Assembly (NCBI GenBank): GCA_023053545.1
Contig: JAKZAN010000003.1
Span: 1,701,501 to 1,765,500, forward strand
DNA length: 64,000 nucleotides
DNA from: Lepidurus packardi
Lineage: Eukaryota > Arthropoda > Branchiopoda > Notostraca > Triopsidae
Direction: 5' to 3'
Positions 1,831-64,000 of this stretch are shown piece by piece (position 1 is the stretch's first letter; every line of letters begins with the position of its first letter). The translations under genes were made by a program, and so were the position numbers. Under the pieces are notes generated by a model. The model was not told where the DNA came from. It saw nothing but the letters and a program-made list of their open reading frames with translations, and did not search any database.

Positions 1831-2149
1831 GGCGACGTAAAAAAGCTAAAGCGGGATTAAGTACGTTTAAAATAAATTCTCCACCCTTCTGTACTATTCG
1901 TTTATGACGATAGCGGAAACTCTGTTTGGATTGAGCCAAATCTCGAAGAATAGACTTGAAACGACGTAGCTTTTGTTTCTCTTTTTCCTGAAGAGGGATA
2001 ACACCCTTGACTAAATTCAAGATGATTTCGCAAATAACGTTAATAAGGGGTCGGTCAGCGTTCTGAAGGATAATTTGACGGAGTTTGGGCTGACAGCGAC
2101 ATAAAGTTTTCAAATAAGGTTTGTATTTCTTCACCTGTTTAAGACACAT
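1772..2149 (-). CDS. short basic protein, adenovirus pX-like family of Polintons
   Basis: 125 residues, very rich in Lys/Arg, with a central basic run (KQKLRRFKSILRDLA) and a Gly-Gly-containing segment (QKGGEFIL) near the C-terminus. Similar small proteins sit beside polymerase and integrase in many animal Polinton/adintovirus elements and have been compared with the adenovirus core protein pX/mu, which condenses DNA. The family assignment is from memory of the pattern, not a search. The gene overlaps the next gene downstream by 59 nt. The first codons contain several Cys (MCLKQ, CRCQ). No frameshift is seen. Confidence 0.55.
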   Translation of the reverse strand: MCLKQVKKYKPYLKTLCRCQPKLRQIILQNADRPLINVICEIILNLVKGVIPLQEKEKQKLRRFKSILRDLAQSKQSFRYRHKRIVQKGGEFILNVLNPALAFLRRHGQSSASHAVSAARHSQQN

Positions 2150-2340
2150 CCTCTCGTTGTCTGTTTACCTCCAAAGCCAGTGTGCGACTAAAGGTTTACC
2201 CACTCGAAGATCGCGCTTTAAAGGCTAAAATAAGACGCGTCATAATCGACAACCATTCAGCTAGAGTTTGAAGGGTTTGCGTGGCAACCTGTCGACAGCG
2301 AGTGCTCCATTTCTTCCCAAATCTTTTATCATGAACCATC
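2150..2340 (-). other. short spacer in the Polinton remnant, no gene seen
   Basis: About 190 bp between the basic protein gene and the duplicated polymerase 3' end. No ORF or recognisable motif was found on either strand. It is probably what remains of sequence once placed between polymerase and the small genes. Confidence 0.4.
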
Positions 2341-3682
2341 TTGCAGCTTCAAAGGTTGAGTGACAACTAAACTAGACATGGGTTATAGACACAATTTAAA
2401 CTTTATTCATCATCTTCATTACAATATCCGTAAGCGTGACTGGTAACAAAATCTGGGAGCCAGAAACGTTTATCATCAAGAGCAGACAATGACAACTTAC
2501 GAGTTTGATAAGTATAAATTTGATGGTTGAATGAGCGGAGAGTGGTATTGGTAGTATATACCTCGCTGCGCTCACCATACAACACTTGACGGTAAAGGTC
2601 TAACGATAATTCACGACGGGTGGCTTCTCGGGTAGTGCCCTTGGCCTTTCGTTGTTCTTCACCCGTGTCAAAACGTATACAATAGAGTTTGGGTCGTAAA
2701 GCTACAATTTCCACAATACGGTTTTGTCCAGCCTCGTTCTTAAACATGCCTAGACGTTTATCGTTGTCAGCATAGTAATATGGACTGGATGGATGTTGGT
2801 TGGAGGTATCAAAGTGGGTGGTTAGACGATGACGCATCTCTTCCCAGAATCCGGTAGGGCTTTCCACACTGTAGCAAAAACTGTCGGTATCGGTAAAAAC
2901 CAAGCGGCAGCGCGAACCAAAATGTGGGCGAATAATGTTGTAGTGGAAATCGTACATATGCATTTTGGCTAATTCCAATATTGCAAAACCTACAAGGATT
3001 GGTTTGTTTGCAGTTTGCAGCTTCAAAGGTTGAGTGACAACTAAACTAGACATGGGTTATAGACACAATTTAAACTTTATTCATCATCTTCATTACAATA
3101 TCCGTAAGCGTGACTGGTAACAAAATCTGGGAGCCAGAAACGTTTATCATCAAGAGCAGACAATGACAATTTACGAGTTTGATAAGTATAAATTTGATGG
3201 TTGAATGAGCGGAGAGTGGTATTGGTAGTATATACCTCGCTGCGCTCACCATACAACACTTGACGGTAAAGGTCTAACGATAATTCACGACGGGTGGCTT
3301 CTCGGGTAGTGCCCTTGGCCTTTCGTTGTTCTTCACCCGTGTCAAAACGTATACAATAGAGTTTGGGTCGTAAAGCTACAATTTCCACAATACGGTTTTG
3401 TCCAGCCTCGTTCTTAAACATGCCTAGACGTTTATCGTTGTCAGCATAGTAATATGGACTGGATGGATGTTGGTTGGAGGTATCAAAGTGGGTGGTTAGA
3501 CGATGACGCATCTCTTCCCAGAATCCGGTAGGGCTTTCCACACTGTAGCAAAAACTGTCGGTATCGGTAAAAACCAAGCGGCAGCGCGAACCAAAATGTG
3601 GGCGAATAATGTTGTAGTGGAAATCGTACATATGCATTTTGGCTAATTCCAATATTGCAAAACCTACAAGGATTGGTTTGTT
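2341..3682. repeat. 674-bp-period tandem duplication of the polymerase 3' end
   Basis: Bases 2341-3008 recur at 3015-3682 (668 bp, offset 674). The only difference I find is C2496 versus T3170. The unit holds the last ~200 codons of DNA polymerase B, including the FTDTDSF active-site motif and the stop codon, plus about 60 bp downstream. The duplicate is therefore a second headless polymerase tail. Near identity implies either a very recent event or an assembly artefact (two haplotypes or overlapping reads placed in tandem). Confidence 0.9.
2403..3053 (-). pseudogene. duplicated C-terminal piece of Polinton DNA polymerase B
   Basis: The second copy of the polymerase tail, downstream of the complete tail. 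It encodes the palm motif C region (FTDTDSF) and the native C-terminus (ending CNEDDE), identical in residues to the other copy from NKPILVG onward. It lacks a start, the exonuclease and palm motifs A and B, so it cannot give an active enzyme. Its open frame runs about 45 nt upstream into duplicated spacer sequence and means nothing there. Confidence 0.85.
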
Positions 3683-42239: not shown

Positions 42240-44395
42240 TGACGGCGACATTGCTGGTGCATCGACCGGGAAACTCAACGATCGACACTTCGAAACTGTA
42301 AGTACGCTTTTTGCCCACCTTTCGTACAATGGCGCTCGCGAATCCGCCAACCGTAGAACCGACTTTTCCGGCGACGAAAGGGACGAGTCAAAGGATGTTC
42401 ACGTTCTACGCAATCTTCGCAGCGTAGCGAAGAAGCATGCGTTGGCTTATATTAAGCGCATTGACACCCTTATACAAAGTCGCGGCAGCCGCAGTGTACT
42501 CGAAATGCTAAGGCAACAGCTGACCGAAAATCTCAACAAAAGTGTGGATCTGAACAAACGATACGTCAACGCCCTGGGGCCCGAGGAATCCCAAAGAGCG
42601 AATTCGGAGGCTTACATAGCGAAAGTTGAGAGAGATGCATTCGCCTCGTTTTTATCCATCGAACAATATCGTTCTTCGCGAGCCAACGACGCCCCTTCGT
42701 TCATCGCTCGCATGCTAGTACCCGTAGTTCATGCAGACCAGCCGCAGAGGGCAGCATCGCCAATTTGCCCTCAAGCTTGCGGCGTCGGGAAACCCAACTA
42801 CGATTGGCCTCTGCCGAATTACGTCTCCTTCGGTTAAAGGAGGACGCCGCTTAAGAGGAAGCCAACCGTAAGAGGATTCGGGACTTGCAGACACGACTGG
42901 AAGAAGAAGAGCACAACGCACAAATCGCGAAAGAGTTAAAATTCCACGAACGCGAAGTCGACCAGCTACGCCTCGAAACGGAGTTGTCTCGCGAAGATGT
43001 TGAAGAGCCGACACGCGTCATAGGGCCGGCGACACCACTCTCTAATGTGTCGCTCCGCATACCAGAGAAAATAGATCATCGAATCCCCATGAAACCGACG
43101 AACGTTCCAACAGCCCACTAACTTCCGGCCGTCATGTAGCAATAAACCGCGAAGATGCGTGGATTTTCGAAGACCACGAAAACCATAGAGGAGTCAACTT
43201 GTTCTCCAGTTCCGGACTCCCTAAGGTAAAAATCGCTCCGTTCAACGGAGATCCTCGTCGCTGGACAATGTTTATTGCAAATTTTAGAGCTCTGATACAC
43301 GAATCAGGCTGCTTAGATGCCCAAAAACTCGCCTATTTAAGAGAGCTCTTGGACGACAAAGTCAGGGAATCTATCGCAGAGACCTTGCATAGTCCGTCCA
43401 TGTACAAAATGGCTCTTGCAGAACTGCAACGACGATACGGCCACCCACATTTGATTGCTAAGTCCTTCGTTTCGAAGCTACTCAACATTCCTCCACTTCG
43501 CTCGGAAGATTTCGACGTCCTCCGAGACTTCGCAAACACCGTCCAGGGCGCCGTTACCTCCCTTGAACATTGTGGGTACCACTCAGACCTCCAAGCGAGC
43601 GCGACACTCTCACAACTCGTACATAAATTACCCAAGACCCTAAAGAATAGATGGGGGAAAAGGGTTTTTCGTATACAACCTCGTGTAGCTGACCTGAATT
43701 ATTTCGACACCTGGCTTGATGAACTCGTTTCAAGCCTAGCAACAGTTCAATAAAACGACCAGTTTGAAACGAAACCAGAGCCTTTTAAGAAGTCACTGAA
43801 GGCTGCAAAACCACCCCAGTCAAGACCATGTCCACACAACGAGAGAAACACCCACTCCAAAAACTTGCCAAGTATGCGGGAAAGTAGGGCACAGTATATC
43901 TAATTGTCGAAAATTCACCGCTTTGCAGCCGAAAGAGAGAGCCGAAGTAATTAAGGAGAAATCACTCTGTTTCTCTTGCCTCGAAGAGCCACATCGAAGT
44001 CGCGAATGTGGTCGAAAGCAGGCATGTTCGGTAAATGGCTGTAAAGAAAGTCATCATCCATTCCTGCACGGCGCACCTCTAGTCTACCCGAATCGGACAT
44101 CACCAAAGGAGCAGCCAGGCCCCGCTGTCTACCACACGAGACTAGAGCCCGACAAGGTCGTACTCCTTTCAGTAGTCCCCGTTAAAATATTGAAAAACGA
44201 TAAATCTCGACGCGTAAACGCCTTACTCGACACTGGTAGCGAAGTTTCTCTCATTAGAAGAGAAGTGGCTAAGAAGCTTTCCGTAACTGGCCCTGAGACA
44301 AAGATTCAACTCGAAACGTTTCACGGCAACGACCCCGTGTTACGCGTGACAGCAGTTACCTTTGAAGTCTCCTCCCTCGATGTAGGGATCCCGGA
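42240..44395 (+). pseudogene. BEL/Pao retrotransposon gag and protease fragment
   Basis: An open stretch without a clear start (about 42240-42837) includes ALAYIKRIDTLIQSRG. After shifts there is a coiled coil (EEEEHNAQIAKELKFHEREV), then a DUF1759-type gag core (KVKIAPFNGDPRRWTMFIAN, LRSEDFDVLRDFANTV, 43199-43753). After another shift come zinc knuckle CQVCGKVGHSISNC and a second Cys cluster (CFSCLEEPH). Protease motif ALLDTGSEVSLI lies near 44220. The sequence ends abruptly near 44395, before RT. Several stops and shifts; no LTR identified. The domain order is diagnostic of BEL/Pao. Confidence 0.85.
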
Positions 44396-44536
44396 ATTTT
44401 TTTCAAATTCGTCTTCTGAAAATAAAAAAAATATCAAAATGTATGTTTCCTTATAAAATACAGTATTTGGAAACCCGAATCGATTTCCTTTTATAATAAA
44501 GTCGCAGTAAAATAAAAACCGTACGTTTCTCCAATA

Positions 44537-44607
44537 GGAAAGTCTATATTGAAGCCCCATAAGCCCCCGTGTAAACCGATGTAATAGGAAATGAGAAAGC
44601 GGGCAGC
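44537..44607 (+). repeat. dispersed ~70-bp repeat, left copy
   Basis: ATAGGAAAGTCTATATTGAA through GAGAAAGCGGGCAGCCCA recurs almost exactly at 51986-52060 (T/C difference in CCCGTG(T/C)AAACC), same orientation. It ends right where the P-element fragment begins. Confidence 0.85.
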
Positions 44608-44615
44608 CCAAGCTA

Positions 44616-47212: not shown

Positions 47213-47924
47213 TTATGCTGATGATGAGGGAAACTTGATGGCTTTCTTGGTTGAACGGGCAAATGGCTGCAAAGAATTGGATGCTTGGCTACAAAGGCGA
47301 AATAATATCCTCAGCCATGATGTTCAGGTGAGTCGTGAGAGTGTGTTTACTGTGCTCTCTTGCTTAATAATTTTCATTTACTTGTTGATATCAGAGACCA
47401 ATTTGATTTTACAGTTTTGCTTTTGTAGAAAATCTAAATATTGATACATAAAATCAAAATCCGTACTAATATATCTTTTCTTCAGGATGAAATCTTTCAA
47501 ATCATGGCTCGCGACATTTTACGTTCAAAAGTGAAGGACATCAACACTGCCCCATTTTTCTCTATCATTGCGGATGGAACAACGGACGTAAGTGGTAAAG
47601 AGCAGCTCTCTGTTGTGCTTCGTTACGTTCCTGCTGATGATCTGCAGCCCAAAGAGGCGTTTGTGGGGCTTTGCGAGCCTTCCGATTCTACGGCGTCTAC
47701 TCTTTTCCTGACGATAAAGGACGTTCTATTACGCCTGGGAATAAATACGGCTCATTTGCGCGGTCATTGCTTTGATGGTGGCAGCAACATGGCTGGTCAC
47801 ATCAACGGAGTCCAAGCTAGATTCACTGAGGAATTCACACTGTCCCTCTTTCTTCACTGTGCAAATCATTCCCTTGACCTGTGTTTGGTTGAAGTAGCTC
47901 GTCAGGTAAATCTCCAGACTTCCA

Positions 47925-48415
<491 letters not shown>

Positions 48416-49723
48416 AGTGAACCAGAAAACAGATTCATCTTTATTTCATGATGTATTCTGTACTTTTTATTGATAATTTGTCCATTTCTGTACTCATTCA
48501 GATTCATTTCTGTGGAGCGCATTCTGTTGGATCAACACTTCCAAGATCACAGCACCACCACGGATTTAGAAAACGCATTGGGCAATCATGCGGAAGATTT
48601 TAATCTCCGTAAACTCTCAGCACAAATCATCATGCTGAGATCTTTGTCGGAGACGCCCTTTGACAGTGTCAAATCAGTAGCCGAATGCCTTCTAAAGGAA
48701 TCGTCAGGCGTCCGAGCAATGTTATCCGAGGTGGTGAAGCTCGTACAACTGATTATCACCCTACCACCATCTGTTGCCTCTGCGGAGCGATCATTCTCTG
48801 TGTTCAGACGCATAAAAACCTATCTTCGCTCCCAAATGAAAGAATCGCGACTGACGCACTTGATGCTTTTGAACATACACAGAGAAGATTCTCGCCGACT
48901 TCATCTCAGTAAAGTGTGTAAGGAATTTGTGTCTCGCAATGCTGAGAGACGAAATGTGTTTGGCTCATTTGAGTGATTACTTACTCTACTGTTTGGCTGC
49001 TAATCTTTCATTTGAGGGCAGCCGATTTTGAATTAGGACGACTATTAGCCATTCCGAAAAGTTTGTGTATTCATTAATGCTTGCTTATACGTACGGTATA
49101 TAGATGTTATAGATGTATCTCGTCTCATAGACCATTCCAACAGGGTGAAAAATAGGTAAGTGCAATTTTTTTACAGTTTTTCACGAATACATTACATATA
49201 AAGAAAAATAGGTAAAATATTTTTTGTGGTACCGCGCACCTAACCCCCACTCCTCGGTAGAAGGTATTGAACTGCCCCCATGACGAAATTGTAGTTCCGC
49301 CGCCACTGAGTGTATATGATCTAAGTGGAATAAGCCCTATAGCAGAGGTTGTCAACCTGTGAGCCGCGGCTCCCAGGGGAGCCGCGAGTCTTATGCAAAA
49401 GCAAATAATCTATCAAAGATTGTTCCACTTTCGCTAGCTTTGGAAAAATCAAATCCCTGTAATAGCGCGTGATAGTGTTTCTGAGCCATAAAACTTCATC
49501 GTAGAAACGTTGCGATAGACTGAAATCATGTCTACTTCTACCTGAGTGTAAAAAATAACGTCAATTTCCCAAATATGGCAGTAAGCTACAAGTTATGCGC
49601 TAGCAACGCCTAGCGGACAAGCTAGACATTCTTGTTGTTTTCGTCTGTAGCGTAGTAGCTTAGATTTTTCGCATGTGATTCTTTATCTAAATGTGTTTCT
49701 TTGTGCAACTTCCTAGTCAAAAT

Positions 49724-51720: not shown

Positions 51721-51985
51721 TTTTTTGTCGAATTAAAGGTAGTAGAATTTTCAGTCCAGTTTGACTTTTTGTAAGCATTGTAATCCAAATTAACGCCAGA
51801 ATAGCTTGATTTGTGCTTCTGTGATTTCGTGAGCGTAGCTCGGAGCAAATGTAAAATACAATACACATAAGTAATGGAAACGTAAATTTTTGCCACTTGA
51901 GTTGATTTACTTTCAGGGGAGCCGCGATGGGTTTATACTTATGTAGGGGAGCCGCGGACCAAAAAAGGTTGACAACCACTGCCCT

Positions 51986-52060
51986 ATAGGAAAGTCTATA
52001 TTGAAGCCCCATAAGCCCCCGTGCAAACCGATGTAATAGGAAATGAGAAAGCGGGCAGCC
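51986..52060 (+). repeat. dispersed ~70-bp repeat, right copy
   Basis: Matches 44537-44607. hAT B inserted at its left edge (CCCTATAG overlaps the repeat start). After removing both hATs, the two copies lie about 1.2 kb apart around the P-like fragment. Confidence 0.85.
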
Positions 52061-52553
52061 CAGCGGGTGTAGGGAGGAGGGGGGTCGGGTGCCGTGTTGG
52101 AAGGGCGGTGTATGGCGCAAGGAGAAAAGGGGAGGTCCCAGGACAGCGAAGTTGCGGGAAGCCGAGTGAAAGAGTGACTAAGAATAAGGAAAACACCACA
52201 TGTTTATGAACACACGTGGCGCTCATGCTTGCACCATGGCATAAATACTTTTAAATCAATTTTTTACCAATGCTTGTATCCTCTTATGATTATAAATAAA
52301 TAGTAAAATAACACTACGCAATACTAATTCGCAATACGTATCATGGAGATAGCTTAACCTGTAATAGCTTAACAATTAACTTTTTGCGTGCACTTTGGAC
52401 ACTTTGCAACATTTGAAAGTTGGCGCAATTGTGTTTACATAATCGTCGAGGATGTAGGAGGCGCATGAAAGAGTTTAACACATTTACCCGCGCTCCATCG
52501 CAAGCAAGCATAAGACGATTGCATTTTTGTGAATTTGTGAGCGTAAGTTAAGT
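52061..52553. other. no gene recognised
   Basis: A GC-rich purine stretch (52061-52150), then AT-rich sequence leading to the first exon of the interrupted gene. A promoter for that gene is expected here, but no clear TATA or initiator stands out. Confidence 0.4.
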
Positions 52554-53016
52554 ATGGCATCCAATTCTTCAGAGCTCGCCATTGAACCTGGTATTGTATT
52601 CCCTTTATAAACATTCGTAAAGTATATAATTAGAACTTTCTTAGGCGAAGTTCGTGTGGATTCGTTCGTCGACATCAATTTGGCAAATATTATAGCAGGG
52701 CGAACTAATAACTTGCCTCTTTCGCTACTAACTAATGGCTTGATTTTGAAGCTTCACAAAGAGCAATCCGTATCCCGGGTCCCATTTCGAGATTATTCAA
52801 AGGCTCTGTATGACGCCTTTGCTGTCCCTTTTACGGAAACCTGCACGTACTCTCTAACGAAGAAGATATCACGAAAGCACACGGAACGTAAACGTCTTGA
52901 AGACTTATTAAAAAATCGAGCCTGTCCAGATAAAATTATAGCCGGTAAAAGGATTGATAAATTCAACGAAGACGCGTTTTTTCTGCCGAAATCATGCTCG
53001 ACTCATTTGTTGTCTG
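52554..53016 (+). pseudogene. interrupted gene X, part 1 (N-terminal exons)
   Basis: ATG 52554 (MASNSSELAIEPG). A 54-bp GT-AG intron (52591-52644) joins in phase to EVRVDSFVDINLANIIAGRT. Exon 2 runs to 53016, where a CACTG-ended transposon enters. Text includes LTNGLILKLHKEQS, and exon 2 ends FFLPKSCSTHLLS. No domain recognised. Joined with part 2 the frame is continuous. I read parts 1-3 as one gene of an uncharacterised coiled-coil protein family seen in many invertebrate genomes, possibly itself transposon-borne. Confidence 0.7.
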
Positions 53017-53229
53017 CACTGTAAAAAAAGTGAGTAAAAATACAAAAATGTACTTAAAGTTTTTGTTTTTTTTACAACAAATTCTAAGTAAAATTAAATG
53101 TTTTTGTTAAATTACATAAAATTTTTGGTTAAAACAAGTACAGTTTCAACTTTCATTTTTACTCAGAAATTTGAGTTCTTTAACGGTAAAGTTTTGTATT
53201 TTCACATCAAAGTTAGGTAAGTTAAGCCA

Positions 53230-54784
53230 AAATTACTAGCAAATTTAGTTTAATGTTACGTAAAAGATCTACTAGACATTCTATGTAAATTAACATACAT
53301 AGAGTTATTATATTAAGGAAAAACAGAGGTAGATATACTCCAACGTTCTTTTATTTCACGCACACTCGATTGTAAAAACACGTAGTTACAATTTACATAA
53401 AATATCTACTTGGAATTCCGAATAAACCGAACGAAATAGGACCAACCTATCATGTCGACTATCCTAAAAATCTTTTTTTGGAAGACAGCATTTTTTTTTA
53501 ACTTGCATTACCGCTGTCAAAACCTTAAACGGCAAAGAAGAAGAGAAAGTATCTGTCTTTGCACATGCGTGCACGCACCCGCGCAATACACCTAGAAATC
53601 GTTCGAGACCTGTCCATGATTTCGAGAACTGTCCATATATCCATTGGATTTACAACCCATTCCAGCAGATGATTCCAAAGAAATGCCAACTACAGATCAG
53701 ACATGAAGCAAGTGCCCTTCAAGAAAAGCGGCACAAGAGGCACGATTGAAAATACTGGCCTCCGCTTTGATGGATAATCCGTGAACATTATATCGCGGGC
53801 GGGAGAATGTCGAAAATTATGACTAAAAGACCTACGATTTGACGTTGACTTTTCTTAACCCCCCTTTTACGACGCTGCCTTTGTTTCTTTTCCAAGAACA
53901 GTCTTTTTCTGAAAATCTCTATACAGTACTATACAGCTGTTTAAGCCATTGTGACGTCGTACGAAAAGTAACCTTCGTAACGTCATAAGTAACGTCATAG
54001 CAGAAGAAACCTGCACATGACGTCATACGAAAATAATTGCTTTCTTTGCGTTTATTTAACGCATTTGTTTTCAATGAGTTGAATAGATTTATCAATGACA
54101 TACATCTGTACTCATGGATGTTATATGGTCTTTTTTGCATTTTTTCGTAATAAAGTTATTTGATCGTTTGCTCTTCAGCCTATAGAATTTTTGTGCGCAG
54201 TTTTCACATTAGCGAAATAAAGAAGAATAATTAAATGAACTTATGCATGACTTATAAAGAAAAACTGATATCAGACGTCGTTGCTGAAAAGTGTGGGAAA
54301 TGACGAGTCAAGGAAGTCAAAACGTTTTTGCTCCCAGAGAGATAAGAACACCTGCATAGAACGCAAAGGGTCTTCTACCAAGTTTGCTCCTCGCCTGTCA
54401 TACGCGCTTCAAATTTATGAGCTTTGGGGAACAACTAGGACGCTCTATGAGAGAGGACTTCAATGTTACCGCGAGATATGGGCAAAAGTTGTCGCAACTA
54501 ACCCTATGTAGAAGTTTGCTGGAGACGGATGAGAAATAAAAACGGTATATACTGGTAGGCAACGAGACTACCGCTACTACATCAGTGAAGTTTTGAAGCT
54601 ATAGGTTAGTGCGATATTCTTGTGTAACCAGACGGTCCATCCAGTCATCCAGTCCGTCCAGTCAATACAGCAAGCGGTCCCTTCAAGTGTGCAGTTCCTT
54701 CAAACACTGCACTAGTGAAGCTTAAAACACTGCATTATTACTGCGTTAGTGATCTACAGAGGAGCTGCTTCCGGTAAGTCGAAA
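53230..54784. other. 5' non-coding region of the CMC element
   Basis: About 1.5 kb without a recognisable gene. TCCATCCAGTCATCCAGTCC near 54640-54660 is a short simple repeat, and GGTAAGTCG just before the transposase ATG could be a 5' UTR splice donor. Confidence 0.4.
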
Positions 54785-57504
54785 ATGAGATTTTTTAATT
54801 GCAATATATGTAAACAAGAATGGTTTAAACGTGGAGCTTTCCAAAATCATTTGAAATTGCACGCATCTCTGAGGAAAGGAAGTTTTTCATGTACTGTTTG
54901 CAGTGTTTCATTCCTAACAGCTAGCTCTCTCGGGCGTCATGTATCTCTTTGTCACGGTAGTGTTTTCGATCGTAAGGTTTCTAGACACTATGCGCATGGC
55001 TATTCTTTACAATGCAAACTTGATTACTGCCAAGCGGAAACATCTACATTGCGTGAACTCCTCAATCACTTAAAGTCCCACATTAGCAAAGATAGGAAAG
55101 TTGTTCATTGTCCGTATAATGGTTGCCAGTTTTCTAGCCGTATTATTTCCACATTTACCAGCCATATGTGCCGAAATCACAAAAGTGCTGCTTATCAACA
55201 AAGCTGTTCGCGTGAGCCATGTAGAGACGAATTGGCTAGTTCAAATGATGCTGCTATTTCTTGCTCTGAAGCTGCTGAAGACATTGTTTTAGAGAATTTA
55301 CAGCTAGTTGTAAGCGAAAACCAAAGTAATAAGATTGGAAGCGTAGCACGTGCTTTAGCAGTTTTCTACCTACAAATGGAGGTGCGATTTTTTATACCCC
55401 AAAGTACAGTCGACGCAATAATTTGTAATTACGAAGGAATCCGCTCTTCTGCTGTATCAAATTTCGAAGATACGGTTAGGCAATCCATGTTAAGGAACGG
55501 TATTCAAGATGATTTAGTAGATAAAGTTTTCCAAGAGATGCAGAGTGGAAATACTCTTTCTATTTTACATTCTGCCCAAGGAGAATTAAGCACTACATAT
55601 CGCAGGCGTCAGTTTTTTTCTTCAAATTTTGCTTATGTACCTCCTCTGGAATTGCTCGCGAACAATGATTCCTATCACTACGTGCCGATTACGGACACCC
55701 TACTTTCTCTTCTCAAAATCCCAGCTGTTAAAAATGCAGTAGATCAACACGAAGTGTTGATCGACTGCGCAAAAGACAACTATAAAGATAATGACATAAT
55801 AGCCGATGTCTTCGATGGCACTTGCTTTAAATCTTTACCAGAAACGCGCAAAAAAGGAGTGCTGTTGATTCTGTATACAGATGCATTCGAGATCGTAAAT
55901 CCCATTGGCTATGCTGCAGTCAAGCATAAGGTTTTCGCTGTTTACCTAGTTCTAGCAAATCTCCCCTATCATTTAAGATGTAGGGTAGACCATATTCAAC
56001 TGGTTTTGCTTGTGAAGGAGAAAAAAATGGAACTTACTCAACATTTTAGAAGGTTAATACAAGATTTACGCAGTCTTGAGCAAACCGGTGTTGAACACTC
56101 GGGTAAGCATTATGAAGTCACGCTGTTGTCGGTGTTAGGAGATAGTTTAGGTAGCCATACTATTGGTGGCTACCAAGAAAGTTTTTCTCGAAACCAGTAC
56201 TATTGCCGGTTTTGCCTTGCCACTCGAGAGCTTAACGACGAAGACAGGAGACACGTAGTAAGGGTGGTCGCGGATGCTATTGAAGAAGCCACAGGAAGCA
56301 AAAAGGCTTGCTGGTCAAACATTGAACACATTGTCAAAGACATGGTACAAAAGTACCCGGACACTTTTGGTGATCTTGATGTAGGTGCTACAAATGTCCC
56401 GACGAGACCAACCTGCAACTCCTTTGTTATGGCAGTATACCGTAGGTTACAGAATGAAGCGAAGAAAGAAAAAAGAAAATTGCCTGCATCAACAACGGCA
56501 GAAGCAGCTAAACGAAAGAATTTCGTGTCAGCTGATACGTATGGGTGTAAGAACTATTCACCATTGTTACCAGAGTGCGAGTCTGAAGAAACGCAAGGTG
56601 CCAAAGCAGAAGAGCTCCTACGCTTGTATGAAATGCGTGAGCCGAACAATGATGAAGTAACACGTCTGATGCGTGAAACGTACTAGTACCAACGTAAATT
56701 GATTGAGGACAAGAAACCAGTCGAAGATGTCAAGTCCAAATTTCCGTTTCTCTTCAACGAAGAGCTCTTCAATTTGCATTTGTCTAGTTTGGTTGGTATT
56801 CCAGATGTGATGACTATTGCAAAAGCAAATTTAGAAACAGAAGCTGCCATCATATGGAAAAGAGCCCGAGAGGTATTGACGAAAGGTTCCAAAGACGTGG
56901 AACTCATGGAGCTTGTAAGCAAGGCGGAAGTCTTCAATGCCATCCAACGTTCACAAGTTGTTTCCGTCCACGCCGCGGTGCCAATCATTACACGACTTTT
57001 CCGGGAAAATCTCTCACATTTGATACACTTATTTGAGGTATTTTTAAAATAGACCAAAAATATCAAGTACGTTTTGAAATATATGAATCTTCTCTTTTTT
57101 TGTAGGAGACTGTTCGTGACAAAGATGCGTCAAATGGTAATACGCACGCCCAGGTTTTTGCGTTTGGACCAAGCATTTTTGAAGCAAAAAGGTACACCGT
57201 GGTTGTCGACGCAGTCATGTTGAAGGAGTTCAACAATCTAACCGATGCGATACTTATGGCTTTTGGATGCTATTTTCTTTTTTGGCTAAAATACCCAGCC
57301 AAATTACAGGCAACAATGGAGTTTCTTGAGCGGTAAGAATTTAGAAACATCAGTGGTTAGGTATATTCAGGACAAAATCTAATTAGGAACATCTTTACGA
57401 TTAAAGCTCAAAAAGGAAGTAAGGGAGAACGTAGGAAATCTGCAACCATTCACCCGAAAGTAGCAAGACATAATGAAATTAAATTGCGCATGTCAAATGA
57501 ATAG
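54785..57504 (+). pseudogene. CMC/EnSpm-like transposase with C2H2 fingers, one nonsense codon
   Basis: ATG 54785 (MRFFNCNICKQEW). Four C2H2 fingers at residues ~6-135 (CNICKQEWFKRGAF...HLKLH; CTVCSVSFL; CKLDYCQAE; CPYNGCQFS). The central region has ILYTDAFEIVNPIG and GDSLGSHTIGG, and YYCRFC is a second Cys patch, a pattern I associate with animal EnSpm-type elements. TAG at 56684-56686 interrupts; the frame resumes (QRKLIEDKKPV). Introns 57038-57105 and 57333-57386 join in phase; the last exon (IFTIKAQKGSKGE, IHPKVARH) ends TAG 57502-57504. About 860 residues if read through. The superfamily is from memory and should be searched. Confidence 0.72.
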
Positions 57505-57859
57505 CGGATTCATTGCCAATTTTTTTAGCGCATTTTGTTTTATGTTTCAAATGCTGTGTTCATTTTTTAATCTATGTGGTTTGTTTTTGTCACCATTCTT
57601 TACTTGTGCTTTACTTGGTCCGCATTCGGAAAGACATTTATATGAGCGCTCATATAGATGCCTTTTCAAGTGACCTATATATATAATATTTGAAATAATG
57701 TTACACAGAACATTGCAACTTGTCCTATCCAAGAAATGTGCCTTATCATTCGCTTATCATTTTCTGGTATTGTATAATTATAATTATGTCATATTGTGTT
57801 ATACAGTCAGGATCGGTTTTTGAAATCGACGGATGTTTCAGCAATGTTTCCCTTATTAC

Positions 57860-58075
57860 GGTGTGTTCTGAATGTTTTACTCAAAGAACGTGTATAACTT
57901 TTACTCAAAGGACTAGTAAAATTTTTACTCAAAGGATGTGTAAAACGTTTACTCAAAAATGTTTTTTACACAGAAAAAGTTTAAAATTTTTACTTAAAGA
58001 ATGTGTGAAATTTTTACATAAAATGTTGTTTAAAATTTTTACTCAAGCAACAAGTAAAAATTTTACACATAAATA
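57860..58075. repeat. subterminal direct repeats of the CMC element
   Basis: At least six copies of TTTTACTCAAAG-RAYGTGTAAAA-like units, 25-40 bp apart, within 300 bp of the 3' terminus. Inverse motifs (GAGTAAAAAT, AGTAAAATTAAA) lie after the 5' terminus. Subterminal arrays like this bind the element's own protein in plant En/Spm. Confidence 0.75.
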
Positions 58076-58164
58076 TGATTTTTTATTTTACTACACTTTT
58101 TAATGGTGAAAAATGCTGTACTCACAATTTTGAGTAAAACGAGATAATTTTTTTTTACAGTGTG

Positions 58165-58899
58165 GCAAAGTATTCACACCTTCGGTATGTTCCCCTCCAA
58201 TACCGGGAAGGAAACGTAATCATACCAGTACTGACGAAACTAGGAAAAAACGAGCCCAATTACTAATAGCAGAGAAACTAACTGAAAATCGAATATGTAA
58301 GCGTAAACTACATAGAAGAGAAACTATGGTAGCCTCGTTACTAAAGCAATTAGAAACGCGAAAATCTCGCTGCCCCTTCAAAAAGGTAAACCAACTACGC
58401 GCGCGATGTTTCAGATACCAAAAATCCCTTGCCGAATTAAAGGCAATGCTAAAACTTGACGCAGAAAACGAAAATCAACGCCGAAAGTCATATAAAACAC
58501 GAGTTTTGCGCCTGACAGCCAGAACTGTGTACATGAGGAACACCATTGCCCGACTTAACGAAAGTAATAACAGCGACACTGTATTACGCTTTCGCCAAGA
58601 AAAATGAGAAACTTAGAGCCACATTGCAATATCTTGAAGTCGCTAACGAGAAGATGAAAGAAGATCTTGCAGAACTCTCCAAGGAAAACTTCATGTTCTC
58701 ATGGATGGCAAGTCTTATTCCAACAAGACGGCCATGACTTACGCACGGCTAAGTGCGGAAGGCGTTTCAACGAAGCGAATTCGGAATGTAGTTCAGATCG
58801 TTTTGCAGAATCTCGTAGGCATTTCAGCACCTCGACTACCCGGTGCCACTTTTGCAGCAGATGCCATACTGGTTGGAAGAGAGATATCTCAGGTCCACG
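58165..58899 (+). pseudogene. interrupted gene X, part 2 (coiled-coil region)
   Basis: Continues part 1 in frame from GCAAAG (GKVFTPSVCSPPIPGRKR). A strongly basic/coiled-coil region follows (residues ~150-290: LLKQLETRKSRC, LRARCFRYQKSLAELKAML, LQYLEVANEKMKEDLAELS). Two compensating one-base shifts lie near 58601-58605 (A5 run) and 58697. Then SNKTAMTYARLSAEGVSTKRI and IVLQNLVGISAPRLPG lead to AADAILVGREISQV, where a hAT element begins at 58900. The pattern 'coiled coil, then Y...RL...G.S..R...VV..VL..' is shared by the family. Confidence 0.7.
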
Positions 58900-61800
58900 C
58901 AGTGGCGTAACTAGGGTGGGGCAGCCGGGGCACGTGCCCTGGGCGCCAACTTGAGGGGGGCGCCATTTTCATGTTTCACCATTAAATTACAGAGTAGGAA
59001 AAAGGATTTGAAAAGCAACTATGAGCTGGGAAATGTACTTGGATGATTGCGTGAAATTAACATTTAAGTTACTGCGTACATTACGTATCTTTCTATGTGA
59101 CCTACCCCCCCCCCCTTTCTGTACAATGGTTGTTACGGTCGGCTACCCGACACATAAAGAACCCCAGCAAATTTCCCATGCCTAACGCCACGATAGTTGC
59201 GCGAGCGTGTCCCACTCCTGTCTCTTTCGAACGCTCTTATTGTCCCGCAGCTTCCTTTTTTTTACATAGAGCCGTGCCGTTAGCACGGGGCGCTTTGTTG
59301 GGCATTTTTTGTGACGGTCATTTTACTGCTTAGTCTGTTCCAAGTTTCCTCATGGTTTGTAGCACTCTTAGCTTTGCGGCATTACAGTACTATATGTTTT
59401 GTGTTACTTTTACATATGTGAGAATTGTGTTCGGATTGAATGTCACTTTAATGGTTAACTGAAGGTATTTATTGCTACAATCATAAAAATCTAGTAATTT
59501 TCCCTTCATAAAAGTTAAGGCATGAAACGAACGGCGCAAAGAACGAAACTGAGCGGAGCGGAGGGTAGGAAGCGAAAGAAAAATCAGGAAGAAGAGGCTA
59601 AAAAACTAAGTGGTCTTATGAAGGCCTTCATTTCAAACCAAGAAAGTAGCTCTTCGTTACCATTAAGAGATGAAGGTATTATTTAGACAGTATAGAAAAG
59701 ACCAGTAAACTTAAAGTGCATTGTTAATTTCTGCTAGCTCAAGAAACGGGTCTGTCATCACAAACAACAGACACGATAGAAGTGGTTGCGGATCAGAGTC
59801 GTGGATCAGATCCACTTGGTAGTATGTCTGAAGAGCTAGGACGAAATGAACCTGACTTGCCAACACATGGGCCAAAAGAAACTACCTTTACAAGCAGTGG
59901 AGACCAGGAATTAACGCTGACAACAGAAGATGTGATTCGCTATCGCGATGTAGGCTACTTGGAGTTCGACAGCCAATCAGGTAAAGCTCGTATATCGAAC
60001 TCACTGAAGGTAGAAATGATAACGCTGGGATCAAAGTACTTCCAGAACAGTGACGGACCTTTCTTGCACACGCAAAATCGTTCAACGAATGAAAAATGGT
60101 TCAAAAGAATGTTGGGGAATGGAAACAGCGAAGTCTGGCGATCTTGGCTGGTTTATTCACTAAAAAAGAATGCAGCCTTTTGTTTTTGCTGCATGCTGTT
60201 TTCAAAAATGGACAATCAGTCCAAACTGGAGCAAGAAAGCGGTTTCACTCACTGGAAGGCACCTGAGAGATTTATTCTACACGAAAACTCACAGAATCAT
60301 CGCCTTTCTTTTACTCAATGGAAAGAAATGGAGGAATCTATCTGAAAACAAGGGGATAATTGATGCCGAGTTTCAAGCTCAAATTGCTAGTGAGAAGCAA
60401 GGGTGGCGAGAAATTCTTAAAAAGAATATTGCATTGCGTCAAATTCTTAGCAACGTAGAATCTCTCCTTTCGTGGTCATAGAGAATCGTTACGAGAAGAA
60501 GGCGACGGAAACACCGGTAACTTTCTCGAGCTTCTCAAACTGTTGTCACATTTTGATCCTGTCGCCAAAGAACACCTCACTCATGTAGAAATGAACCCCG
60601 GAAAATTGTCTTATTTATCACCTGCGACTCAAAATGATTTTATACAGCTCATGGCTTCCGCCGTACGACAAAAACTGATTGAAAAAATCCGGAAAGCAAA
60701 GTATTACGGACTCATGTTTGATTCGACCCCGGACTTGGCTCACAGAGAGCAAATGGCTCAAACTGTTCGATATGTTCATATCGACTTTGAAAACTGGACT
60801 GTCAGTATTAAAGAGTCATTTCTAGGTTATCTTGAATTAAAGCAAAAGGATGCGGAAAGCATTGTAACTGAAATTTTGGAACAGCTTCGTAAGGACAACA
60901 TGTCTTTAGAAGACTGTCGTTCACAATGTTACGACAATGCTGCTGTAATGGCTGGGCGCAAAAGCGGCGTTCAGCAGAGAATTCTTGAAAAAAGTCCCAA
61001 AGCTACTTTTGTCAACTGTGACAATCACACTCTTAATTTGGTTGGAGTCCGTGCAGCTACACATGCCCCGGTGATCGTTACCTTTTTCGGTGCCATAGAC
61101 TCGATCTATTCTTTTTTCGCTCGTTCTACTCACCGATGGCAGAAGTTGAAAGATTCAATGCCTCTAGTCTAGTCAGGTTGTGAAACTCGTTGGAGTTCAA
61201 GAGCAGAGGCTGTGAGACCAGTCTCGGATTATTTTAATTGTTTAGTAGAATTGTTACAGTCCATGGTAGATGACCAGTGTGAGAATGTCGACACAAGGAA
61301 TGACGCACAACAACTGCTAAATCGGATATTGTCATTCGATTTCGTAGCATTGCTCGAATTTTGGAACGCATCCTTAACTCGTATAGATCGCGTTCAGAAA
61401 CGGTTGCAAGATCCTACAATGAACTTTCAAGACGCCGCAACAGACCTGAAAGCATTGCAAAACCATATTCTAGTCAATCGAGATTTGCTTGCTAGCTAAT
61501 CGCTACAACTGGGGCTTCACTTGTGTGAGCAGTGGGGCATTGAAGTTGAACAACGCCGTAGGAAGAAGAAACACATGCCTGGCGAGAAAGCGAGTGACGA
61601 GGGACTAGGGGCTCAGGACGAGATGAGCAGAATTATAAAGGAAACGGTAGACCGCATTCGTGTTGAGATTGACGACAGATTCTCTCGTCTGAATCAATTA
61701 GATTCAAAATTTGGATTTTTGTTAGACCTTAGCGGATTACTCGATTTTATGGACTTCCTAGCATTGAAGCCCAAGATAGGTTAAGAAGAAGTTGTGTAAA

Positions 61801-62200
61801 CCTTGGCCAGGAGTATAGTACTGACGTTGAAGGGCTCCAACTTTACGAAGAAATACTCGACTGCCGGATGCTTTTGAAAAGCCGCACGAATATTCAAATA
61901 TCGAATCCACGGCAGCTTCTTTTGTTTATAGTCCAGTACGGGGATGAAAACGTTTTTCCAAATTTACGGGTGGCTATTCAGATTATGCTTACAATCTCTG
62001 TTTCAATTGCCAGCTGCGAAAGATCTTCTAGCAAGCTCAAATTAATTCTTTCGTACCTTAGAGCATCAATGGGAGAAGAGATTTTCAGCTTTGGCTTTAC
62101 TGAGTATTGAGCGTGAAGAAACGGAGCTGATGAATTTCGATGCAATTATTGACAAGTTTGCTTCAGAAAAGGCAAGGAGAGTAACATTGCATAAATGATT
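58900..62200 (+). mobile_element. hAT transposon C (ZMYM1-like), 3' end missing
   Basis: The left TIR CAGTGGCGTAACTAGGG starts at 58900 after candidate duplication GGTCCACG (58892-58899). A palindrome GGGGCACGTGCCC follows. A decayed transposase fills the interior. Neither the inverse TIR nor GGTCCACG is found before gene X sequence resumes near 62530, so the right end was lost by deletion; the stated end is approximate. Confidence 0.75.
59522..62110 (+). pseudogene. hAT C transposase, heavily mutated
   Basis: Exon 1 from ATG 59522 (MKRTAQRTKLSGAEGRKRKK) joins across a 62-bp GT-AG intron (59676-59737). Zinc finger region: NEKWFKRMLGNGNSEVWRSW, AAFCFCCMLF. Stops near 60343, 60479 and 61170; shifts between. 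Catalytic text: YYGLMFDSTPDLAHREQM, CRSQCYDNAAVMAG, FVNCDNHTLNL. Dimerisation remnant NVFPNLRVAIQIMLTISV, SIASCERSSSKLKLI. At least six lesions make it the most decayed of the three hAT genes here. ZMYM1-type hAT. Confidence 0.85.
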
Positions 62201-62540
62201 CTGTAATCCTTCCAACGTTCGTTAACTGTATTAACCAAGAATTTTTTAAAGGTCTATGCGTCACTCCTTGTATCGGCAATTAAATTCTTCCTCTTCTGTA
62301 TTAGTGCAATTACATGCTGATTTCTAACGTTACGAGTGAATATCCTCGTTAATGTAGTATTTCCAAGCTGCCAAATTTTTGTGATAGCAATGTTTCGAAT
62401 GATTGTAATGTGATCCATTAAAGTTCCCTATGTTCCCTATGCGAATAAAGTATGCTGGTTAACATAATTATGAATTGATTCAAACGAATTTCAGCTCCTA
62501 TTACACTGTATACAAAATAGTATAGTGCCTTCCTTCAGGA
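62201..62540. other. AT-rich junction, probable intron of gene X
   Basis: No gene. It ends in TGCCTTCCTTCAG, a good splice acceptor at 62538 for the next gene X exon. It contains the undefined deletion point of hAT C. Confidence 0.4.
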
Positions 62541-63581
62541 TTGGTTGACACGGCTGACGGGACGGCGAAGACGTATCTCGATGAGCTTAAGTCCATTCTT
62601 GCACAAATTGGAGAAGCTCACGAATGCCATAATAGCAACAACCCCAATTTTATGCACAGAGCTATTGTAAACATAAAAAACACGATGAGTGATCGACACA
62701 TTGTCCAAAAGAACATCAATGCTGCGTTCCAACAATACCGGGAAGAGATCCTCCCCGAGGTAGTGGACCATTGGGATGAGCTGGACACACTTGAAAAGGC
62801 TTCTTTTGCTCAAATGAACAACTTTTTCTCTGGACTGCACGTTTTGGTGGCATTTGCCGACAAGGCAAACCTCAGCGTGTCAGTTTACGAGGAATTAATT
62901 TATGACAAAACCCCATTTGGATCATCAAAGTTGCCTTTCGCCAACAGATCGGGAACAAACAGTGCCACTGTTCAAGCGATCTTCAACCTGGTCAAGTGCA
63001 TTCATCCCCGCGCACGAGGGTCAGACAAAAGCGGGAAAGCGGCGCAGTTCGCCCTGTTTTGTTCACGGGAACACTATGGGATAACAGCTTTGCCCGTTCA
63101 GCCATTCAAAGGCAACAGATTTAATATACTTTTCCACAATGGGGGTGGTATTTTCTATCTGTACTCCACCGGGGCACTCGTGGATTTCTTCAAATATGGC
63201 GCTTTCGTTGCCAATAATCTCACAAAAACCATTGTGGAAGACTTGTCCGTACCTGAGATTATCGCAGGTGCAAGCGCATTCGGCATTGTAGACAAGAGGA
63301 TTACTGGTCCACTCTGGAGAAAAATCGTCGCAACAAGGCACGTTGCCGACATCGCGTCGGAACAAAGTACTACTTTCGAAATGCAAGGAAATGGCCATCG
63401 ATGCCAGTAATGTGTTGAAGGGAGACTTCTTCATTTTTGGCGAGGAAAATATAATGACAAAATTTCGGATGCGCTATTCGCCCCATCCGAGGAACTGGAC
63501 GAAATAACCAAGAGTATCCTCGAATGCATTGCTGCTTCATTTGTAGCCACTATTGAACACCTTCTCGCTGACCATCTAGAA
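62541..63581 (+). pseudogene. interrupted gene X, part 3 (conserved C-terminal domain)
   Basis: From the acceptor at 62538 the frame reads VDTADGTAKTYLDELKSILA, then VNIKNTMSDRHIVQKNINAA, FQQYREEILPEVV, FFSGLHVLVAFADKANL, RGNRFNILFHN-like text (KGNRFNILFHNGG), PEIIAGASAFGIVDKRITGP and LWRKIV. I recognise this order from uncharacterised invertebrate and fish proteins that also carry an N-terminal coiled coil. A one-base shift near 63385 leads to KGRLLHFWRGKYND and ILECIAASFVATIEHLLADH; then hAT D begins. The 'DE' segment expected between parts 2 and 3 is absent, probably removed with the hAT C deletion. Family function unknown. Confidence 0.65.
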
Positions 63582-64000
63582 CAGTGGTCTTCAACGTGGG
63601 CAGTAGTCTTCAACTACCGCCCACTTGTGGGCGTTTTGAATTTTTCAGTGGGCGATTAGCCCGTGGTGGGCGGTAGGGGGGCGCTGGGCATAAAATGCCC
63701 GGCGAATGATTTACCAATTTTACTTGAAAGGTAAACTACAGAGTACTTGTTTTCTCTTCAAGATTCAGTACCATTTTATTACCTAAAGCTTTAAAAGCAC
63801 TACAGATTTGTGTGTATGGGGGGGGAAAGTTTAAGCAAAGGGAGAGCTTTCCAGGGCGCCTTCCTTTTCAAGCGAAGTATACGAAACTACTCCACACAAC
63901 CGGCTGGTTAGTTTTTTTTCCAGAATTCTTCCCCCTTTCCTAGTTTTTTTTAAGAGGAAAGAGAAGCTTGGATTTGCTGAAAGGAAGAGTTCGCAAGTAA
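63582..64000 (+). mobile_element. start of hAT transposon D
   Basis: CAGTGGTCTTCAACGTGGGC begins a hAT-type end, followed by stem-forming GTGGGC / GCCCAC repeats (63594-63680). The preceding 8 bp (ATCTAGAA, 63574-63581) are the candidate target duplication. The element extends past the window; no coding region was seen in the first 420 bp. Confidence 0.6.

Follow-up and report, generated by a model that had tools for sequence, protein, structure and literature searches.

An interrupted coiled-coil gene of Lepidurus packardi as a probable decayed DNA transposon with a predicted hAT-like core and Spindlin-like Tudor tail

A stretch of 64,000 nucleotides of the Lepidurus packardi genome (GenBank assembly GCA_023053545.1, contig JAKZAN010000003.1, positions 1,701,501 to 1,765,500, forward strand; hereinafter, the window) contains a gene for a coiled-coil protein that is cut by three insertions. 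What was this gene before it was broken? The original prediction, made from the window alone, offered a new DNA transposon superfamily or a multi-copy host family, and named uninterrupted copies, terminal inverted repeats (TIRs), target-site duplications (TSDs), and an RNase H fold as the evidence to look for. All of these were found, the fold as a prediction, and hence the transposon part of the proposal is supported and the host-gene part is not. Very probably, the broken gene is a decayed copy of E1, our name for a DNA transposon of the cut-and-paste TIR type whose transposase would combine a coiled coil, a hAT-like DDE core, and a Spindlin-like Tudor pair.

In the source genome (108.6 Mb in 344 contigs), the first exons have nine DNA matches and exon 3 has 16 protein matches; six matches are copies, 99.86–100% identical, of a relative at 80% amino acid identity. 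These six E1 copies start and stop at the same perfect 15-bp inverted ends, TAGGGATCCCGGAAT, and are 5,653 bp long in five cases out of six, the copy on contig C46 being 39 bp shorter. Base-by-base comparison covered five of the six, with the C46 copy left out, and two E1 copies are identical across 5,653 bp. The similarity of the near-identical copies, which lie at dispersed sites, ends at the TIRs, and three of the six are flanked by exact 7-bp TSDs (GAACAGG, CGCAAAG, and CCTATAT). The E1 TIR pattern with at most one mismatch has 28 matches genome-wide, compared to one for the reversed control. The E1 copy on contig C5, to which the window is compared below, is 6,341 bp long.

Seven further matches of the protein search, at 34–37% identity, belong to a sister family, E2, whose longest copy has its coding region in a single exon. 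The full E2 copy on contig C3 (7,092 bp) has perfect 16-bp ends, TAGGGAGGCCGGTCGA, and the TSD ATTTAAA. The E2 ends yield 61 genome matches and none in the control; most of these are unpaired or in arrays, and the TSD counts rest on nine pairs, of which eight (the full C3 copy and seven further pairs) have exact 7-bp TSDs. The motif TAGGGA-NN-CCGG is common to the ends of both families, and E2 supports the 7-bp TSD rule seen for E1.

E2-type ends also stand head to tail on contigs C20 and C21 and at C6:724107-724139 (loci L068–L072), with zero or one base between the right and left TIRs: four of the five junctions read have one T and one has none, and more are present among the 61 TIR matches. 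These arrays, of many units, roughly 12–23 kb, look as if they came from circular intermediates. In addition, three E2 coding copies lie exactly 5,565 bp apart at C5:10491690-10503626 (L035, L036), and the overlap compared contains 2,840 identical bases; this triplet is a tandem amplification.

The intact E1 copy L041 encodes 1,194 amino acids in four exons with GT–AG introns. Judged by its substitutions, exon 3 is under purifying selection: for L041 and the copy on contig C16, the nonsynonymous rate (dN) is 0.102 and the synonymous rate (dS) is 0.868, with the ratio 0.117; comparing the window with the C16 copy gives 0.45, from 13 changes. One database search gave 135 protein relatives with E ≤ 0.001, described here from the best 120. 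Among these listed matches, the named relatives come from Lytechinus, Diadema, Strongylocentrotus, Holothuria, Patiria, Dysidea, and Sycon, one is filed under a bacterial metagenome bin, and none has a functional name. The family-profile scan of IMG/VR viral and GTDB genome contigs yielded 55 and 59 pattern matches, respectively, none of them a relative, and thus, at that sensitivity, neither a viral nor a prokaryotic source emerged.

In the alignment of 71 of the 120 listed relatives with the E2 core, the pattern D-D-C-x2-H-E is conserved, and the cysteine of C-x2-H is kept in 72 out of 72 relatives. The core is predicted to be an RNase H-fold DDE domain into which a helical domain is inserted, an arrangement shared with hAT transposases. 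Inverted repeats, a TSD of fixed length, and a DDE fold with catalytic residues (a prediction of fold, not of activity) are thus all found, as in TIR DNA transposons. Over the core and the insertion domain, Hermes is the closest structural match, and the TIR start TAGGG agrees with the hAT end rule, (T/C)A(G/A)NG. Fungal hATs with 7-bp TSDs are known as well (hAT7; PMC12730594). E1 and E2 could then be a very divergent clade within the hAT superfamily and not a separate superfamily, a reading to which we give slightly less than an even chance. Several observations speak against it. No Pfam transposase model matches the protein p41 or the 16 relatives scanned, and no hAT or BED model matches p41 (E up to 5), nine relatives (E up to 0.5), or seven relatives (E up to 1). 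The hhalign comparison with a 25-sequence alignment of one animal hAT clade gave nothing (probability 0.2%). Finally, C-x2-H lies 46 residues past the second catalytic D in 72 out of 72 relatives, compared to about 20 in Hermes.

The true C-terminus of E1, beyond the coordinates first assigned to the gene, is predicted to be a pair of Spindlin-like Tudor modules, modelled with a Tudor-like barrel fold; the segment FFSGLH...ITGP, originally taken for the C-terminal domain, belongs to the catalytic core. The structure closest to the tail is Tudor 2 of Spindlin1, which binds histone H3 trimethylated at lysine 4 (H3K4me3), and module 2 is the only one to fit Spindlin closely. With the methyl-lysine cage residues of Spindlin taken from PMC7864079, the aromatics F, W, and Y of the Tudor 2 cage align in module 2 (three out of four positions), and module 1 has W, W, and Y at three cage positions in the alignment. 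Across the E1 tail, 17 of the 120 listed relatives, and an E2 protein, the cage W is present in 19 out of 19 sequences, as is Y or F. Alternatively, the Tudor pair may have no histone-reading role and serve only protein folding or DNA contact. Partial conservation of the cage residues across relatives would fit this, as would the module search over 121 proteins, with no match in 24, several of these apparently cut short. It agrees less well with the likeness to an H3K4me3-binding domain, the aligned F, W, and Y, and the constant W and Y or F, and we regard it as possible and somewhat doubtful.

A number of observations weigh against E1 being a TIR transposon with a DDE transposase and a histone-reading tail. 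Three of the six E1 copies, on contigs between 25 and 296 kb long, have no matching TSDs; in the C5 copy, the 7-mer CTAAACG recurs eight bases beyond the right TIR and does not abut it; and a short copy of 981 bp on contig C3, with both ends present, has a TSD match of six out of seven. The ninth E2 pair (C6:706168/724107) lacks a TSD because at its right end it meets another TIR in a tandem junction; it was counted as a pair and kept outside the TSD comparison. All TIRs and TSDs observed are from the source genome. The core model is based on an E2 copy, not on E1, and that copy departs from the family at three conserved positions (H224Y, W383E, and R503Y). As for the tail, the two modules taken as a unit give a poor superposition on Spindlin (TM score 0.33, 14.6 Å), module 2 does not conserve the fourth aromatic of the cage, and the first cage position is L or C in five out of 19 sequences; p41 alone matches Agenet only below the cut-off, and with the tail of p41 alone the values are 0.007 for SETDB1 and 0.68 for Spindlin-1. 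Transposition and histone binding are functions that we infer.

The P superfamily (P element, Galileo, THAP9) shares with E1 a DDE core with an insertion, and Galileo has 7-bp TSDs; nevertheless, membership of E1 is very improbable and was rejected, since no THAP domain (Pfam) matches p41 or 16 relatives, and the structural match is far weaker than that of Hermes. A multi-copy host gene family hit by transposons by chance has next to no probability: some copies do lie in tandem, e.g., the E2 triplet described above, but defined TIRs and 7-bp TSDs at dispersed sites, with near-identical copies ending at the TIRs, led to rejection of this possibility.

How, then, did the window copy of the transposon E1 decay? 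The bases at the CACTG-ended insertion are as initially stated, with TG on either side, the junctions reading ...TTGTCTG/CACTGTAAAAAAA... on the left and ...TTTTTTTACAGTG/TGGCAAAGTATTC on the right (Table 1). Removal of the insert and one TG was proposed to restore the frame, and the C5 copy, which has no insert, indeed reads ...THLLSGKVFTPSVCSTPIP in that frame; the site is also empty in the C16 copy (L026). The restoration holds at the junction; downstream, exon 2 goes out of frame again in the same stretch as in the C5 copy. Both proposed hAT-like insertions are borne out. At the first, the right TIR was searched for and not found, and on its right side 210 bp of E1 are gone relative to the C5 copy, where this piece carries the first catalytic D (SDGTT). 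The second is flanked by an 8-bp duplication with one mismatch (seven out of eight bases alike). Exon 3 between them retains the second D (SDRHIVQ) and the helical insertion domain, and the C-x2-H cysteine is replaced by serine, as in the C16 copy (cysteine in the C5 copy). Since the first D is deleted, C-x2-H is changed, the frame is broken, and three insertions lie in the coding region, the window copy is a decayed E1 copy that cannot make the transposase.

The limits initially given to the gene, 52554..63581, are too narrow: the left TIR, an exact TIR match (C16:1745883), lies at 44383, and the element reaches at least window-equivalent position 67155, with no right TIR found up to window-equivalent 73,000. 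An 80-bp stretch of this left end is repeated at 51983, and the left end may belong to the same copy as the part from 51983 onward, split by nested insertions. The proposed N-terminal coiled coil is plausible, as a profile search matched many coiled-coil chains to the family's N-terminal region.

Table 1. Parts of the E1 copy and insertions in the window
Feature	Position	Strand	Evidence
E1 left end, TIR TAGGGATCCCGGAAT and 213 bp	44383..44610	+	96.5% identity to C5 E1 copy positions 1-231
E1 5' region, exon 1 (ATG 52554), first part of exon 2	51983..53016	+	98.3% to C5 copy positions 152-1188
TSD TG, left copy	53015..53016	.	Bases read directly
Inserted CACTG-ended DNA transposon	53017..58162	+	Ends CACTGTAAAAAAA / TTTTTTTACAGTG, read directly
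645-aa open reading frame (ORF) within the CACTG-ended insert	54749-56686		ORF list
TSD TG, right copy	58163..58164	.	Bases read directly
Remaining exon 2 of E1: coiled coil, beginning of the catalytic region	58163..58899	+	96% to C5 copy, as far as position 1916 of that copy
hAT-like insertion	58900..62535	+	Left end CAGTGGCGTAACTAG, DUF4371 ORF
E1 exon 3, first part	62536..63581	+	98.2% to C5 copy positions 2127-3175; 289-aa ORF
Second hAT-like insertion	63582..64000, on to window-equivalent 66197	+	Ends CAGTGGTCTTCAACG / ...GAAGACCACTG

The CACTG-ended element, with its 2-bp TSD and an ORF with C2H2 and Transposase_21 matches below the cut-off, is probably CACTA/EnSpm-like. The E1 left end is situated inside the ORF 43923-44456, which we take to resemble a retrotransposon gag. 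Between 44610 and 51983, there are hAT-like ORFs (labelled by eye), and a long run of TA dinucleotides (approximately 47900-48450) yields a YIYI ORF and splits a hAT-like transposase ORF. Elsewhere in the genome, contigs C1, C2, C4, C6, and others carry numerous COX1 fragments in which TGA is read through (nuclear mitochondrial copies). One nuclear COX1 fragment, translated with the invertebrate mitochondrial code, has its nearest named records among arthropods, a blowfly and a shrimp, at no more than 84%. COX1 frames without stops on contigs C43, C52, and C214 may be bacterial, and hence some contigs may be contaminants.

If E1 acts as its predicted parts suggest, the DDE core would cut at the TIRs and insert with the 7-bp stagger seen in the TSDs, the coiled coil and helical parts would assemble the complex, and the Tudor pair, with about an even chance, might guide or tether the complex to methylated histone H3 (of the H3K4me3 type), affecting target choice. 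A bolder proposal, which we hold only tentatively and think rather less probable, is that E1 and E2 represent an undescribed superfamily-level lineage of animal DNA transposons, present in echinoderms, sponges, and this invertebrate, with its own Spindlin-like H3K4me3 reader that chooses or tethers to active chromatin; the tail would share ancestry with vertebrate Spindlin genes, possibly by domestication of a transposase tail or by host-gene capture. Among the open-licence PMC papers listed in the literature search, titles and abstract starts showed no DNA transposon that carries a Spindlin or Tudor tail; Repbase was outside this search, and thus a catalogue entry for the lineage, as hAT or under some other label, may already exist. 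A large protein family lacking a functional name would be accounted for as transposases, with a lead on the origin of Spindlin genes. If true, a histone-methyl reader built into a DNA transposon would make the element a counterpart of chromodomain retrotransposons, and chromatin choice by DNA transposons would become directly testable; near-identical copies with an intact frame exist and can be used for activity tests.

Compared to known systems, E1 and E2 share with hAT elements (Hermes) the RNase H core and the helical insertion domain. They differ in the TSD (7 bp vs 8 bp in hAT, with 5–7 bp in named sub-groups), in the lack of profile similarity to the one animal hAT clade compared, and, for E1, in the lack of a Pfam match to the BED-type zinc finger or the hAT C-terminal dimerisation domain and in the added C-terminal Tudor pair. 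Dada resembles E1 in 6–7-bp TSDs, DDE with D/C-x2-H, and introns (PMC3706591); it inserts into small RNA genes, its D2–E spacing is 176 in Dada-U6_DR vs 322 in E1, and it was rejected as a candidate because it has no TIRs. In KDZ, Zisupton has an 8-bp TSD (PMC12730594), compared to 7 bp in E1 and E2; p41 has no KDZ-named Pfam match, and KDZ, like some other families, is absent from the fold-match lists, an absence that excludes none of them. The Spindlin family (SPIN1–4) resembles the E1 tail in its Tudor-like modules, Spindlin1 Tudor 2 being the nearest, and differs in having three of them, whereas E1 has two (one is found in most relatives), fused to a transposase. A parallel in architecture is a Gypsy element of Ectocarpus, also mobile and with a C-terminal Tudor domain of the histone-reader type, which is a long terminal repeat retrotransposon, not a DNA transposon, and which a 2025 paper presents as, to its authors' knowledge, the first reported transposable element with a Tudor domain (PMC12477816).
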